From NCBI GenBank assembly GCA_017399175.1, contig JAFQEE010000003.1:1-40506 (forward strand): 40,506 bases of DNA, read 5' to 3'. Under the pieces are notes generated by a model. It had not been told where the DNA came from and searched no databases. It saw only the letters and a list, made by a program, of their open reading frames with translations. Of this stretch, positions 33,645 to 40,265 are shown one piece after another. The position numbers and the translations under genes are program-made. How positions within the stretch are numbered: position 1 is the first letter of the stretch; the number at the start of each line of letters is the position of its first letter. The DNA is from Clostridia bacterium. Lineage in GTDB: Bacteria; Bacillota; Clostridia; Oscillospirales; Acutalibacteraceae.

Positions 33645-34388
33645 TTATTTTCTGTATTTTTCGGTAATTGACAGCATTTCCTCTGTCAAAGTACCGTCAT
33701 TATTATATGCTACGAGGTTTCCCAGAACTTTTAATCCGTTTTTAGCACCTCGTTTACCTTCAATCAAGACAAGCCAAGGCTGGGTATCTCCCTTTTTTGA
33801 AACAAAACGCAAAGTTTTCGGTTCAATTCCGTTTTTACGCATTGAATACATAACATCAAAAACTCTTTCAGGTCGTTGACAGATACAAAGTTTACCGCCA
33901 AACCGCAAAAGTCGTGATGCACTTTTTGCAATATCGTCCATATTACAGAAAGTTTCGTGTCGTGCAATAGTTGCAAAATCCTCGTCATTTTTAATTCCGC
34001 CATTTTCGATTTTATATGGCGGATTCATTGTAACAACATCAAAGTTACCTGCTTTTAAATCATCAATATTCTTTAAATCTCTGTTAAGCACGGTAATTTT
34101 GTCAGTTTCGTTGAGCAGGAGTGAACGAGTCATCTGATTACAGCCTGTTTCCTGAATTTCAATTGCAGTTATCTCTGAGCATTTTTTATCACGAAGCCAG
34201 AGAAATGGAATAATTCCGCAACCTGAACCGAAATCACAGGCAACATCATTTCTTTTGGGATTGGCAAAATTCGCAAGAAGCATAGCATCTGTACCGAAAG
34301 TATGTTGTTTCGACACCACAACTCCTACACCGTCACCTAAATCCTCAATATGTTCACCGTCAAAAAGAGTTATTTTATCAGTCAACAT
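33645..34388 (-). CDS. trmN6: TrmN6-type tRNA(Val) A37 N6-methyltransferase
   Basis: About 247 residues of the YfiC/TrmN6 class I methyltransferases. The SAM site is DFGSGCGIIP (about 52-61), and the N6-adenine signature NPPY is at 122-125 (MNPPYK). HTFGTDAMLLANFA near residue 30 is also typical. The predicted target is A37 of a tRNA; the exact tRNA is by family analogy. The ATG at 34388 has GAGGA 6 nt upstream and overlaps mgtC by 11 bp, indicating coupled translation. Confidence 0.88.
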   Translation of the reverse strand: MLTDKITLFDGEHIEDLGDGVGVVVSKQHTFGTDAMLLANFANPKRNDVACDFGSGCGIIPFLWLRDKKCSEITAIEIQETGCNQMTRSLLLNETDKITVLNRDLKNIDDLKAGNFDVVTMNPPYKIENGGIKNDEDFATIARHETFCNMDDIAKSASRLLRFGGKLCICQRPERVFDVMYSMRKNGIEPKTLRFVSKKGDTQPWLVLIEGKRGAKNGLKVLGNLVAYNNDGTLTEEMLSITEKYRK

Positions 34389-35121
34389 AAATATCCTCAA
34401 CATCTTCCATACTTCTGATAGTTGTTGTCATAAGTGAAAGGGAATCATCATTTTTAGGGAAAACAAGGACTTTAATAACAGATGTATCCTTACGACGCTT
34501 GAATTTCAAATCCTTTGTTTCTGTATAAACAACTTCCATTGAATGAATTGTACCGCCACATTGTTTGATAGTTTTTGTGATAAGCGGAATCTGTGTTCCC
34601 ACATCCTTGATTTCGATAAAAAGAAGTTTACCTGCTGAACCACGCACGATAAATCTTTTAAGTGAGTTAAGTGTAAGGTATATAACTATCGTTGCAACAA
34701 AGGCACCTGCGTAGAAACCTGCACCAACTGCAATACCGATACAAGCAACAGCCCAGAGAGATGCTGCAGTTGTAAGTCCCTTAACGGAGAAACCCTCACG
34801 AAGAATTGTACCCGCACCAAGGAAACCGATACCGCTGAGCACCTGTGCGCTCATTCGTGTAACATCGCCTGTCATTCCCTGTTCGTTATAAATATATACT
34901 GATGTAAGCATAACAAGAGCTGAACCGACAGCAACAAGAATATGAGTTCTGAACCCTGCAGGACGATGAGAATGTTCACGCTCAAAACCGATAAAACCGC
35001 TGAGAAGTGTTGTAATTAAAAGTTTTACAACAGCATCAACAGTAAATCTTAACTGGTCAAACTCCCAAAGCCACAAGGCAATATTTTTTACTGATTCCCA
35101 AAATTCAGCCACTAAGTTCAT
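34378..35121 (-). CDS. MgtC/SapB family membrane protein
   Basis: 247 residues: four to five N-terminal membrane helices (within about 15-135) and a C-terminal soluble ACT-like domain (about 145-247). MgtC signatures: LLSGFIGFEREHSHRPAGFRTHILVAVGSALVMLTS and RMSAQVLSGIGFLGAGTILREG, then TTAASLWAVACIGIAVGAG. MgtC proteins act in magnesium starvation, membrane potential or ATPase regulation rather than bulk transport. Start uncertain: AGGAG abuts the ATG at 35121 but lies 9 nt before a GTG at 35112. It follows the P-type-ATPase-like gene by 24 bp, a meaningful pairing since MgtC can modulate ATPases. Confidence 0.9.
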   Translation of the reverse strand: MNLVAEFWESVKNIALWLWEFDQLRFTVDAVVKLLITTLLSGFIGFEREHSHRPAGFRTHILVAVGSALVMLTSVYIYNEQGMTGDVTRMSAQVLSGIGFLGAGTILREGFSVKGLTTAASLWAVACIGIAVGAGFYAGAFVATIVIYLTLNSLKRFIVRGSAGKLLFIEIKDVGTQIPLITKTIKQCGGTIHSMEVVYTETKDLKFKRRKDTSVIKVLVFPKNDDSLSLMTTTIRSMEDVEDIYVD

Positions 35122-35145: not shown

Positions 35146-37896
35146 TTACTTTTTTCGTGTAAGTGCAGGGACAGAAAGTATAACTGCCCATATAATCTGA
35201 TAAATTCCTATCTGTAATGCGCCGATTTGTGCCATATCTGACATAAATGTGAAAAGGGCTATGATTATCGCACCTATACCTGATGCAATAAACTGAATAA
35301 GTCTTGATGAGTTTACAAAATTATTGATTATGAATGTACCGTGAAGTGCTGCCAACATAGATTTGATACTGCCGTTATGAATGATTTTCGCATCACTTCT
35401 GTCAGCAACTCTTGATTTTTCCTTTGAGAACATTTCACCCGCAACAGGGTTGATAATTTTAACCACATTTGATGGTAACTGGAATTCTCGTTCAAGGAAT
35501 TTTTCTGTAATATTCGCATCAGATGTTCGGAAGAAAATTGTAAGTCCGTCTTTTTCAAGTTCACGAAGATATCTTGCTGTTTCCTGATTTGCCTTATAAA
35601 CAACAACAAACATCGCTGCAATCTTACCTTCAATAGCAAGGTAAATAACATTTCTTCCGTTTGATTTGAATTTTTCTTCCAAATCCTTATCAGGTGTTTC
35701 AACATTGTGATGCACAAGAAGGTCACGGTTACCAACAAGGACTCTATGATTATGAATCCAGCATGAGCAACCTAATTTTTCCTCGTACGCCAATGACTCA
35801 ACAGGAAGCAAAAGTTCGCGTTTACCGATAATAACACCGTCAAAAACCTCTGCCATAACACCGCCTGATGCAATAACAACTGACGCAGTATAAAGAATAG
35901 CCTCATCAATTCGCATCTTATGGTAAGTTTTCATACCCTCGATGTTGCATCCACCCTGTTCAAAAGCATCACAAGCGTCGATAATAACACCGTTTGTATT
36001 AACAGCATCGTCAACTGCGCTGTAACCGTTAATAACAGCACCATCCTCGTTAATAAGCTTGTTTGTAGCACGAAGATTTATTGCTGACAAAAGTCCTGCT
36101 GAACAAGGTAATGTCATTAAAAGTGTTGCTGTGAGAGTGCTTATTCCTGCAAAGAAATTACCTGTTTTTATAATAGAAATAATACCGAGAATAAGTCCTA
36201 CACCTGCCATTACAGGTATTGTAATTTTACAAACAGGACCTGTAACCTCTGCAAGTCGTGAAAGCTCCACAAATTTCTGTGGAAAACCGATTTTTGCAGA
36301 ATACTTGATTTCAGGATTACCAAGCATAAGACCTCTTGCAATCTCATTTGCAGTATCTTCATCTGCAATATTTTCAACGCTGTAACAATTTTCAGTATCT
36401 TTTGTTATAACATTAAAGTTTTCGCTGTCATTCTTGGAACGGATAAATTCACCCGCAAGTTTCATAATCATAGGCACAACTGCGGCGCCCACAGTAAGTC
36501 TTGCAACAGATTCAATGCTGTCTGCTGCGAAGAAAGCCACAAAGCACTGAACAAATCCTGCAATTGCAGAAACCGCAACAACAGTATCCACATTAAGAAC
36601 CTTGCTCTTTATGTTTCTATATGCCTCGATGAATGAGTTGTAGTTGATTGCACTCGCTGTAACAAGCAACAACAACTGCACAAGAACATACACATATTCA
36701 TTGTTACCGTAAATCTCAAAATTACCGTTTTCCATACCTGCAACAAATGAAAGTATGGTCATAAGTAAACAGATTCCCGATACAAGAGCAAGTTTTATAA
36801 TAATTGATTTTTTCTCCATTGAGAAAACTTTTTCAACTGCGTCCTTATCCCTTGGTCCGAAATACTCACGGACAACGGAAACCTTTTGTCGTTCATATCG
36901 TCTTCTTATAGGTGGAGATTCCACTCTTTCCTTTATTTGCATTCCACCGTTGACAAATTTGTCAACAGCAATTTTTCTGTTTTCACGAAGTTCTTTTTCA
37001 GCCTCTTCTTCAGATTGCTGCATAATGATATCTTCGTCCGTGTCGAAACCATCAATCATAATCTGATTATCTGCTTTTTCCTGTGGAACAACTTTAGTGC
37101 CAAAATCTTCTCTTGTTTTTTCCTGTTCAAGCTCATATTCAGCAGGAACAATTGTTGGTACAGGTCTTATTCCGTCTGTGCTTTCTTCTGCTGAACCGCT
37201 TTTCACAACAAGTCCGGGAGTTTCAATAGTTTCCTGTGGGCGTTGCATTCTGATGGCTCTCTGCTCCATTGTGTTTTCAAGCTTTTGAACAGGCTTATTC
37301 ATAAAGTGCTTTCTGTACTTTTCGTCAGCCATTGTGCTTGAATAAACAGGTTGGGCATCACCACTTGTTGCCCTTGCAACCTTATTTCCAAGATTATGTG
37401 AAATGTTAGGATTATATGCACCGCGAATGTCAACTTCGTTAAACATTCTTGTTTTTTCAATGGAAATCTGACCTGTAACAGGCTTTACTTCTTCCTCATC
37501 GCTATAACTTTTTACATCTTCTAAAATTTCATCAATAACATCATCGGTAAAGCCTAATTGACCGTCATCATCAACAGAAACAGAAATTTCTTCCTTAACA
37601 GGTTCTACAATTTCTTCTTCATCGTCAAACTCATCAAAATCCTGAACCTTTGACATATCAAAAGTAAATGTTGATGCAACTCGTTCATTCTTTGCTGTTT
37701 CCGGCTTTTCATCTGAAGTTACAGAGCCATAAGCCGATGAGTATGAACCCACAGCCAAGTCCGTTCCGCCTATTTCTGCAAGAAGCGAATCAATATCATC
37801 AATAGAATATATTTCCTCTGAATCATCTTTAAGATTTTTTGCCTTTAAATCATCAAGAATCTCATCAATCAAGCTATCTGAAATTTTATCTGACAT
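35146..37896 (-). CDS. P-type-ATPase-like membrane protein lacking catalytic motifs
   Basis: 916 residues. Residues 1-350 are acidic, low complexity and probably disordered, with repeated IDEIL motifs at 10-14 and 121-125. From 360 on, the layout follows P1B metal ATPases: paired helices (about 365-387, 402-420, 437-458, 465-483), a soluble piece, helices at 555-578 and 582-600 ending TLPCSAGLL (like the CPC site), a P/N-domain-like region, and C-terminal helices 868-885 and 892-910. Where ATPases have DKTGT this has IDACDAF (D640); TGE, TGD and GDGxNDxP equivalents are missing. VLVGNRDLL and AIEGKIAAMFVVVYKANQETARYLREL resemble the N and P domains. Likely a pseudo-ATPase with a scaffolding or regulatory role. 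RBS GGGGGTG precedes the ATG. Confidence 0.75.
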   Translation of the reverse strand: MSDKISDSLIDEILDDLKAKNLKDDSEEIYSIDDIDSLLAEIGGTDLAVGSYSSAYGSVTSDEKPETAKNERVASTFTFDMSKVQDFDEFDDEEEIVEPVKEEISVSVDDDGQLGFTDDVIDEILEDVKSYSDEEEVKPVTGQISIEKTRMFNEVDIRGAYNPNISHNLGNKVARATSGDAQPVYSSTMADEKYRKHFMNKPVQKLENTMEQRAIRMQRPQETIETPGLVVKSGSAEESTDGIRPVPTIVPAEYELEQEKTREDFGTKVVPQEKADNQIMIDGFDTDEDIIMQQSEEEAEKELRENRKIAVDKFVNGGMQIKERVESPPIRRRYERQKVSVVREYFGPRDKDAVEKVFSMEKKSIIIKLALVSGICLLMTILSFVAGMENGNFEIYGNNEYVYVLVQLLLLVTASAINYNSFIEAYRNIKSKVLNVDTVVAVSAIAGFVQCFVAFFAADSIESVARLTVGAAVVPMIMKLAGEFIRSKNDSENFNVITKDTENCYSVENIADEDTANEIARGLMLGNPEIKYSAKIGFPQKFVELSRLAEVTGPVCKITIPVMAGVGLILGIISIIKTGNFFAGISTLTATLLMTLPCSAGLLSAINLRATNKLINEDGAVINGYSAVDDAVNTNGVIIDACDAFEQGGCNIEGMKTYHKMRIDEAILYTASVVIASGGVMAEVFDGVIIGKRELLLPVESLAYEEKLGCSCWIHNHRVLVGNRDLLVHHNVETPDKDLEEKFKSNGRNVIYLAIEGKIAAMFVVVYKANQETARYLRELEKDGLTIFFRTSDANITEKFLEREFQLPSNVVKIINPVAGEMFSKEKSRVADRSDAKIIHNGSIKSMLAALHGTFIINNFVNSSRLIQFIASGIGAIIIALFTFMSDMAQIGALQIGIYQIIWAVILSVPALTRKK

Positions 37897-37936: not shown

Positions 37937-38686
37937 TTATCGTTTGTACGAAAACTCGTACATTAAAATACCACCTGCAACAGATGCGTTGAGCGAATTG
38001 ATTTGTCCCTTCATTTTAAGTGACACAATAAAATCACACTTTTCACGGACAATTCTGCTCATTCCGTCACCTTCTGAACCGATTACAAGAACTACTGCAC
38101 CGTCAAGGTTGACTGAACGGATATCCTCACCGTCCATATCAGCACCGTAAACCCACAATCCTTTTTCCTTTAACTCATCAAGAGTTGAAGCAAGATTACT
38201 GACACGCGCAACCTTCATATATTCAAGAGCACCTGCACTTGTCTTGCCAACCGTGTAGTTAAGTGATGCACTTCTGCGTTTCGGAATAATGATACCGTGA
38301 ACACCCGCTGCTTCTGCTGTACGGATAATTGCACCAAGGTTATGCGGGTCTTCAATTCCGTCACAAGCCACAATAAATGGCTTTTCTCCTCTTTCCTCTG
38401 CAACCTGTAAAATTTCCTCAACTGTTGCATAATCATGAGCCGCACAGATTGCCACAACACCCTGATGATTACTGTGACCGCACATAAAGTCAAGTTTTTT
38501 CTTGTCAACTTCCTTTACAACGGCACCCCTATCACGGCATTGACCGATAATTTTGCCAACCGAACCACTTTTTTCTCCGCGAAGAACAAAAAGTGTATCA
38601 ATCTCGCGGCCTGACTTAATCAGTTCCGTTACGGCATTTCTACCGATTATTAAATCTTTCTTTTTTTCTTCATTGAATAAATCCAT
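37937..38686 (-). CDS. rlmB: 23S rRNA G2251 2'-O-methyltransferase RlmB
   Basis: 249 residues, SPOUT/TrmH family, usual length. It methylates the ribose of G2251 in the peptidyl-transferase P loop with SAM. An N-terminal substrate-binding domain starts at LIIGRNAVTELIKSGREID. The three SpoU motifs follow: CDGIEDPHNLGAIIRTAEAAG, VVLVIGSEGDGMSRIV and VSLKMKGQINSLNASVAGGI. A related RNA target is possible, but RlmB is the best fit. It leads a likely operand group with the ATPase-like gene (40 bp gap), mgtC, trmN6 and rsmI. RBS AAGGGG. Confidence 0.94.
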   Translation of the reverse strand: MDLFNEEKKKDLIIGRNAVTELIKSGREIDTLFVLRGEKSGSVGKIIGQCRDRGAVVKEVDKKKLDFMCGHSNHQGVVAICAAHDYATVEEILQVAEERGEKPFIVACDGIEDPHNLGAIIRTAEAAGVHGIIIPKRRSASLNYTVGKTSAGALEYMKVARVSNLASTLDELKEKGLWVYGADMDGEDIRSVNLDGAVVLVIGSEGDGMSRIVREKCDFIVSLKMKGQINSLNASVAGGILMYEFSYKR

Positions 38687-39706: not shown

Positions 39707-39821
39707 AAGTTTTCTCCTATGAATTTTGTCATTTATATTTTACCACAAATTACTTATCTTTTCAATCTTTGTAATAAAACCATTATTAAAGGGAAATCTA
39801 AATGTGATTGGAAGTGATTTT

Positions 39822-40265
39822 ATGTCCACAACAAATAACGAGTATAACAAAATGGCGGATAAAGCCTCTCCACCGTCACCAAAAATCAAAAACTGTATAA
39901 AAGCATTTCTATTTGGTGGCGGTATCTGTACATTCGGTCAGTTTCTTAACTGGAGTTTTGAAAAACTGAATTTCTCCGAAGATGCCGTCAAGGCACTCAC
40001 CCCTGCTGTCCTTATTGTGATTGCTGCAATTCTTACGGGTATAGGTGTTTTTGACAAAATCGCAAAACACGCAGGTGCAGGAACTATTGTGCCAATTACG
40101 GGTTTTGCAAATTCAGTTGTTTCCCCTGCCCTTGAATTCAAATCCGAAGGAATCGTTATGGGAACAGGTGCAAATATTTTTAAAATCGCAGGTCCCGTAA
40201 TCGCATACGGTATTTTTGCCGCAGTAATTTATGGTGTAATCTGTTACATTTTTCAGTTGTATTGA
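39822..40265 (+). CDS. spoVAC: Stage V sporulation protein AC
   Basis: 147 residues, full length. The SpoVAC pattern is clear: an N-terminal NEYNKMADKASPPSPKIKNCIKAFLFGG, GGICTFGQFLNW, then membrane helices at about 28-48, 62-85, 92-112 and 120-145, with AGAGTIVPITGFANSVVSPALEFKSEG and FKIAGPVIAYG. SpoVA proteins form the channel for dipicolinic acid uptake into, and release from, the forespore. The ATG at 39822 has GGAAGTG upstream. In other Clostridia spoVAD and spoVAE follow at once; here a dispersed repeat begins at the stop codon and the next gene points the other way. I could not identify a convincing SigG promoter in 39707-39821. Confidence 0.93.
   Translation: MSTTNNEYNKMADKASPPSPKIKNCIKAFLFGGGICTFGQFLNWSFEKLNFSEDAVKALTPAVLIVIAAILTGIGVFDKIAKHAGAGTIVPITGFANSVVSPALEFKSEGIVMGTGANIFKIAGPVIAYGIFAAVIYGVICYIFQLY

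Follow-up and report, generated by a model that had tools for sequence, protein, structure and literature searches.

The 40,506-nucleotide stretch of Clostridia DNA analyzed here (the window) carries an uninterrupted open reading frame (ORF) of 916 codons on its minus strand (35146..37896). Judged from its sequence, the product is a pseudoenzyme derived from a P1B-type ATPase, which has lost its catalytic motifs and kept its selective constraint. The gene belongs to a family found throughout the bacterial order of the window, with a single match per genome. Its retention in nearly every sampled genome of the order, usually beside rlmB, makes it probable that this dead pump now serves a different function. 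All window features described below lie on the minus strand unless stated otherwise.

The window protein was accepted by no model at cut-off in Pfam, NCBIfam, PADLOC or PHROGs, with no significant match in Pfam, and 42 family members yielded only weak superfamily matches in Pfam and NCBIfam. The NCBIfam CopA model (PRK10671) matched residues 555-807 at E=1.5e-15, with 56 bits against a curated cut-off of 1316. The LpCopA structure 3rfu was matched at E=1.4e-9 from the window protein alone and at 7.1e-39 from the family profile, and an hhalign comparison of the family with true CopA gave a probability of 100 and E=9.8e-39 over 540 columns. Based on these matches, the predicted core is related to P-type ATPases beyond chance, in line with the original prediction for this gene, which held that the P-type core is kept. 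Family-average hydropathy displayed eight segments (residues 369-387, 401-419, 439-457, 461-482 (two overlapping), 559-577, 585-603, 866-884 and 896-914), in an order that we take to agree with that of P1B pumps. The scan is a rough one, which with the window sequence alone also flags residues 666-691 and 748-769 inside the N/P region and which misses two helices of true CopA. The eight-helix P1B topology appears to be kept. Along the window protein, helices 1-4 (residues 362-485, assigned by hydropathy; 36442..36813) are followed by a shrunken remnant of the A domain without TGE (residues 486-548; 36253..36441), by helices M3-M4 (residues 553-606; 36079..36240), by the N and P domains, and by the final two membrane helices (residues 864-914; 35155..35307).

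The catalytic motifs were compared across the family. From 150 ORFs scoring above 150 bits, the true CopA of locus L053 was dropped and one ORF per genome was retained, giving 132 relatives, with order-level loci selected mostly at one per genus; columns were counted in the 130 near-complete ones against the own true CopA, leaving out two that are in pieces (G057 and G046). DKTGT was found nowhere in the 132 proteins and at the aligned columns of none of the 130. Its first place holds Asp in 57 of the 130, the lysine position has become D in 74 and A in 34, the glycine position D in 89 and E in 32, and the isoleucine position of DKTGTI is F in 117 (F645 in the window) and Y in 11, with T changed to P in 80. 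In the window, the former phosphorylation loop reads DACDAFEQG in place of DKTGTITTG (35953..35979). The segment corresponding to GDGINDAP has been deleted, not mutated: all nine columns are gaps in 130 of 130 relatives, GDGxND occurs nowhere in the 132 proteins, and the approximate junction lies at 35392..35412 in the window. TGD is absent from the aligned columns of all 130 and has been changed to T-x-D-x-N-I-T, with T791 kept in 96, D793 in 127 and N795 in 113; the window version of TGDN is TSDANIT (35506..35526). CPC was found in none of the 132, a lone proline being kept in 104 of 130 (LPC in the window, P597). The His of HP was seen in none of the 130 at the aligned columns and the motif-III lysine in two, and TGE was present at the aligned columns in one, where the A region is poorly aligned and the column is the least certain of all.

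Other positions are kept or newly fixed. The N domain (residues 651-745; 35662..35946) has lost HP and retains G709 (128 of 130) and G722 (130 of 130), Y767 is found in 126 of 130 where CopA has Asp, and W903 in the final membrane helices is found in 124. Except for W903, all these columns belong to the N and P domains, where they presumably meet in space. Since conserved P-domain columns occupy the sites of former catalytic motifs, the old catalytic pocket appears to have been rewritten and not left to drift. With the phosphorylation loop, the Mg2+-site segment, TGE, CPC and HP gone, the known pump cycle is excluded for proteins of the predicted sequence, which upholds the view of the original prediction that the normal cycle cannot run. 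The LPCSAG segment and DACDAF loop were likewise found where it had placed them, in an intact frame of 916 codons, and a motif scan confirmed the reported absence of TGE, DKTGT, TGD and GDGxND from the window protein, which lacks HP as well. The change of TGD to T-x-D-x-N-I-T, the deletion of GDGxND and the presence of rlmB directly upstream are additions to that earlier account.

The distribution of the family was examined with a profile (A1; 42 rows, 582 positions) that parts it from true ATPases; ATPase superfamily matches were obtained in 58 of the first 59 genomes scanned. Among 147 Clostridia genomes, with up to nine candidates scored per genome and the best E-value known for every genome, six genomes of the window's own order (its own included) matched the profile over almost its full length, at E<=2e-119, as compared to a top E-value of 1.8e-38 among the other 141. 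In these others, the best of the matches listed covered profile positions of about 218-500, and all 24 of them that were checked for motifs had DKTGT, GDGxND and CPC. Of 299 genomes of the phylum (up to four candidates scored per genome), four matched at 1e-45, all of the own order, as compared to 0 of the other 295; at least seven genomes are shared between these 295 and the 141 Clostridia. The 41 loci nearest the window derive mostly from metagenome assemblies of animal guts. Two are named Candidatus Fimenecus, which is placed in the Oscillospirales and Acutalibacteraceae of GTDB R95 (PMC8035907), and we took the own order to be Oscillospirales from this placement.

Within the order, 142 of 147 genomes at least 90% complete carry one match each at E<=1e-45, including a genome of 1.2 Mb (G324). 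The match spans at least 525 of the 582 profile positions in 141 of the 142, the remaining one (G246) covering positions 7-339, and is free of internal stops in 140. An in-frame TGA was seen inside the gene in loci L031 (G057) and L203 (G243), as a broken copy or an assembly error. Five genomes of the order had no match (G203, G267, G232, G290 and G255), with no full-length relative in any of them at E<=1e-4. In G203, rlmB lies near a contig end and is followed by the initial part of the pseudo-ATPase gene, which carries the motif MEFSVEDILAEF and within which the contig stops. A search for rlmB gave no match at 1e-15 in G267, G232 and G290, and only weak relatives (29-32% identity) in G255. 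Joint loss of rlmB and the pseudo-ATPase gene is likely in G232 and G290, because both are of one genus, and an assembly gap is as likely as joint loss in the other genomes without a match. The distribution makes it probable that the family became fixed in the common ancestor of the order and has been passed on by vertical descent.

Selection was estimated from the ratio of nonsynonymous to synonymous substitution rates (dN/dS), which was 0.017-0.159 for the core (34 pairs more than 68% identical) and 0.056-0.245 for the N-terminal tail (33 pairs), with dS above 1 in many of the wider pairs. Based on these ratios, the gene is under purifying selection. The original prediction had reached the same conclusion from the intact frame, which alone is insufficient as proof. 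Recent local decay, which it had argued against, is ruled out by the presence of the gene across the order and by dN/dS, and none of the 132 relatives retains DKTGT.

The constraint has shifted within the protein. Column entropy, expressed relative to the core mean, was in 17 CopA sequences -0.44 in M4, -0.50 in M5, -0.41 in M6, +0.51 in the N domain and -0.03 in P2 (residues 746-800). The corresponding values for the 130 relatives were +0.03, -0.17, -0.19, -0.22 and -0.31, with -0.27 for the loop at the place of DKTGT. For the own genus, from 200 draws of 17 out of 35 members (mean identity 0.47, as compared to 0.58 for CopA), they were +0.21, +0.07, +0.19, -0.56 and -0.44, with -0.05 for the loop. 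Thus, M4 stands out in neither set as it does in CopA. The N domain, which is the least conserved region in CopA, is among the most constrained in the pseudo-ATPase family, with the top conservation in the own-genus comparison; purifying selection is now strongest on this domain and on P2, the stretch of the P domain that follows it.

The core is preceded by an acidic tail, which in the window comprises residues 1-333 (36898..37896), with 79 D/E and 40 K/R. The original prediction of an acidic, disordered N-terminus thus stands with regard to charge; the tail is probably disordered as well, as suggested by its composition. Among 123 relatives with a tail of more than 60 residues, 114 have a net negative one. 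Tail length has a median of 287 and ranges from 4 to 644 residues (n=130), the longest belonging to the G018 ORF, which spans a run of N. Six complete genes of 540-546 residues, all of family f10, have no tail (G044, G208, G260, G282, G292 and G302); G224, where the gene runs into a contig end, was rejected as a further case. Near its start, the window tail contains DSLIDEILDDLKAK (37837..37878), a version of an S-[IL]-[DE]-[DE]-I-L-x-[DE]-[FVIL]-like peptide. Within the first 110 residues, the strict S-[IL]-[DE]-[DE]-I-L-like motif is present in 23 of 88 tails from other genera and in 11 of 35 from the own genus, as compared to 0.1 on average and at most two in shuffled tails. We also considered whether the peptide is shared with other proteins, and rejected this: a DNA pattern gave four matches in seven genomes, all inside the pseudo-ATPase gene. 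This count is uninformative because a reversed control pattern gave five. The own genome and two more of the seven had no match, and weaker variants in other proteins are possible. Some own-genus tails (e.g., L020 and L057) bear WSx-EIDALL-like peptides, which presumably resemble the CheY-binding N-terminus of FliM.

The gene order in the window is rlmB, the pseudo-ATPase gene, mgtC, a TrmN-like methyltransferase gene and rsmI. The rlmB gene (37937..38686), encoding a 23S rRNA (guanosine-2251-2'-O)-methyltransferase (TIGR00186, 247 bits against a cut-off of 160), lies 40 bp upstream of the pseudo-ATPase gene. In 122 of the 132 genomes, rlmB immediately precedes the pseudo-ATPase gene on the same strand: 117 from the main scan, G018 across an assembly gap, and four from longer loci (L061 for G031, and L090, L098 and L096 for G006, G014 and G029). 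In nine of the other ten, less than 50 bp of upstream sequence is available (G013, G199, G257, G231, G233, G244, G207, G224 and G274). The gap between the two genes has a median of 21 bp and is shorter than 60 bp in 105 of 117. A fusion to RlmB was rejected, since the 1228-residue ORF of G018 joins both genes only across a run of N; it was counted as adjacency.

Downstream of the gene, where 5 of the 132 genomes had less than 400 bp of sequence, 23 of 97 other-genus genomes, representing 9 of 24 families, have an EF-G-family gene at a distance of at most 1.5 kb (e.g., L186:222-2462 and L036:4514-6565, both on the minus strand); one member was named by Pfam and NCBIfam. In smaller groups, the downstream genes encode release factor 1, YebC or other proteins. 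In G053, G228, G213 and G046, of families f12 and f19, a second pseudo-P-type ATPase (P2/P3-like) is encoded directly upstream of rlmB, which is followed in turn by the pseudo-P1B-ATPase gene. These copies (L036:9551-11761, minus strand; L049:2970-5411, plus; L229:1441-3696, plus; L193:5625-7700, minus) have neither DKTGT nor GDGxND, and the G213 copy is cut by the locus end. The closest model to the G053 copy is the magnesium ATPase TIGR01524 (E=8.7e-18). A protein similar to the second pump is also encoded near the pseudo-ATPase gene in G241. A phage or defence link was rejected, since no match was obtained in PHROGs or PADLOC. A sporulation gene, spoVAC (TIGR02838, 179 bits), lies near the locus on the plus strand (39726-40265).

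On balance, and with a little over even confidence, we favour the reading that the cytosolic N/P head would be a receptor for a putative ligand or partner. Such a role fits the way in which constraint has moved to the cytosolic head relative to CopA, as does the putative sensor or regulator role suggested by the original prediction. The membrane part would serve as an anchor. The head, in which the acidic pocket has been rewritten (xDx[DE]hFPxG, Y767 and TxDxN[ILV]T), would bind the ligand or partner, and the acidic tail, which bears a short helix-like motif, would probably recruit a soluble partner. The tail is accessory to the function, since it is absent in six genomes of one family. Judged from gene order alone, in which rlmB is nearly always adjacent and 9 of 24 families have an EF-G-family gene nearby, the protein would most likely act in the context of the ribosome or of translation at the membrane. 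We consider it distinctly doubtful that the protein is, more specifically, an order-defining receptor made from a dead copper-type pump, which couples cell state to the modification of ribosomes or to translation via RlmB and EF-G-like partners. The N/P head would then sense nucleotide, Mg2+ or another ligand, and a second dead pump, closest to magnesium ATPases in one of the two families that have it, would have joined the locus.

Several observations weigh against the receptor reading and its proposed context. That two genes are neighbours, as here with rlmB, is weak evidence that they act in one pathway; in G036, a real exception, rlmB lies on another contig, and the joint absences of rlmB and the pseudo-ATPase gene may be assembly gaps. 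Most tails do not contain the strict motif (65 of 88 other-genus and 24 of 35 own-genus tails). The loop at the place of DKTGT shows conservation in the wide set only, its own-genus value being near average. M5-M6 are conserved above average in the wide set, at a level near that of the N domain, which is not seen in the own genus. Finally, the frequent M4 proline and the nearly fixed W903 suggest that a membrane role beyond anchoring is possible.

These last features bear on the best-surviving alternative, in which the protein is still a transporter, that is, a passive or partner-driven permease that uses the P1B membrane domain without ATP hydrolysis of its own. It would account for the eight helices of the family average, the retained proline and tryptophan and the M5-M6 conservation of the wide set, and the second pseudo-P-type ATPase at the locus in two families could be the partner. 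We nevertheless regard it as unlikely, given that CPC is found in 0 of 132 relatives, that M4 and M6 fall below core-average conservation in the own-genus draws, opposite to CopA, and that P597 and W903 are the only membrane columns to exceed 75%.

The original prediction had drawn attention to the adjacent mgtC gene, since MgtC proteins are known to influence ATPases. The gene (34378..35121; PF02308, 3.4e-40) does adjoin the pseudo-ATPase gene in the window, 30 of 35 own-genus genomes have it no more than 1.5 kb downstream, and the G053 extra pseudo-P-type protein is nearest a magnesium ATPase model. However, mgtC is downstream in 0 of 97 genomes of other genera, and is missing in five of the own genus (G027 and G033, with 7 kb examined, and G023, G024 and G029, with about 6 kb). 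We therefore rejected mgtC as an order-wide partner and regard it as a genus-level neighbour of a different Pfam family; the order-wide neighbour is rlmB. Of the two features proposed as common to homologues, the missing motifs are shared by relatives across the order, and the mgtC neighbour is not shared beyond the own genus. A regulator of MgtC and of ATPases is accordingly very improbable.

A cryptic HAD-type catalysis with migrated residues is slightly less probable still. Asp or Glu is found at the glycine position of DKTGT in 121 of 130 relatives, and T-x-D is largely kept. However, HAD phosphotransferases need both the Mg2+-site segment and the motif-III lysine, of which the former is deleted in every relative aligned and the latter is kept in two. 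That the gene lacks a function of its own, because the pump gene is in decay or because it is carried along with rlmB, has next to no probability: the loss of catalytic motifs and the fast divergence (15-22% identity of the window core to other families) are outweighed by the near-universal single match without internal stop, present also in the 1.2 Mb genome of G324, and by a core dN/dS of at most 0.159.

The family shares with P1B heavy-metal ATPases (CopA, PRK10671/TIGR01525) the eight-helix layout, the order of the N and P domains and the N-domain glycines, and differs from them by the loss of catalytic and metal motifs, the shrunken A domain and the long acidic tail. An N-terminal HMA metal-binding domain is usual, not universal, in the P1B subfamily; no match to the Pfam HMA domain was obtained in the window protein at E up to 1. 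An origin within the P1B Cu+Zn clade was rejected, since a FastTree tree of 48 sequences placed 23 of 23 sampled members outside it (support 0.89 for the family and 0.93 for the clade), a placement in which long-branch attraction is possible. The family would be a pseudoenzyme branch of the P1B fold. Pseudoenzymes in general (reviews PMC5106787 and PMC10211241) have likewise lost catalytic motifs and kept fold and purifying selection. The apicomplexan guanylate cyclase with a P4-ATPase-like domain (PMC6592433 and PMC7858053) also places a P-type-ATPase-like module in a signalling protein, but that module is fused to a cyclase, P4-like and eukaryotic. Among the matches listed in a search of titles and abstract openings of the open-licence literature, with subscription journals and most preprints outside its scope, neither this family nor a bacterial P-type pseudo-ATPase was found.

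A single phosphorylated aspartate is the defining feature of P-type ATPases. The family described here would represent a whole bacterial lineage of proteins from which the P-type chemistry has been removed and the Mg2+-site segment excised, with the rest kept, at one per genome. It may thus serve as a test case for what a P-type head does without catalysis. For the organisms themselves, rlmB gains a near-constant partner gene, and the pseudo-ATPase gene would be usable as a sequence marker for Oscillospirales, a major gut order.

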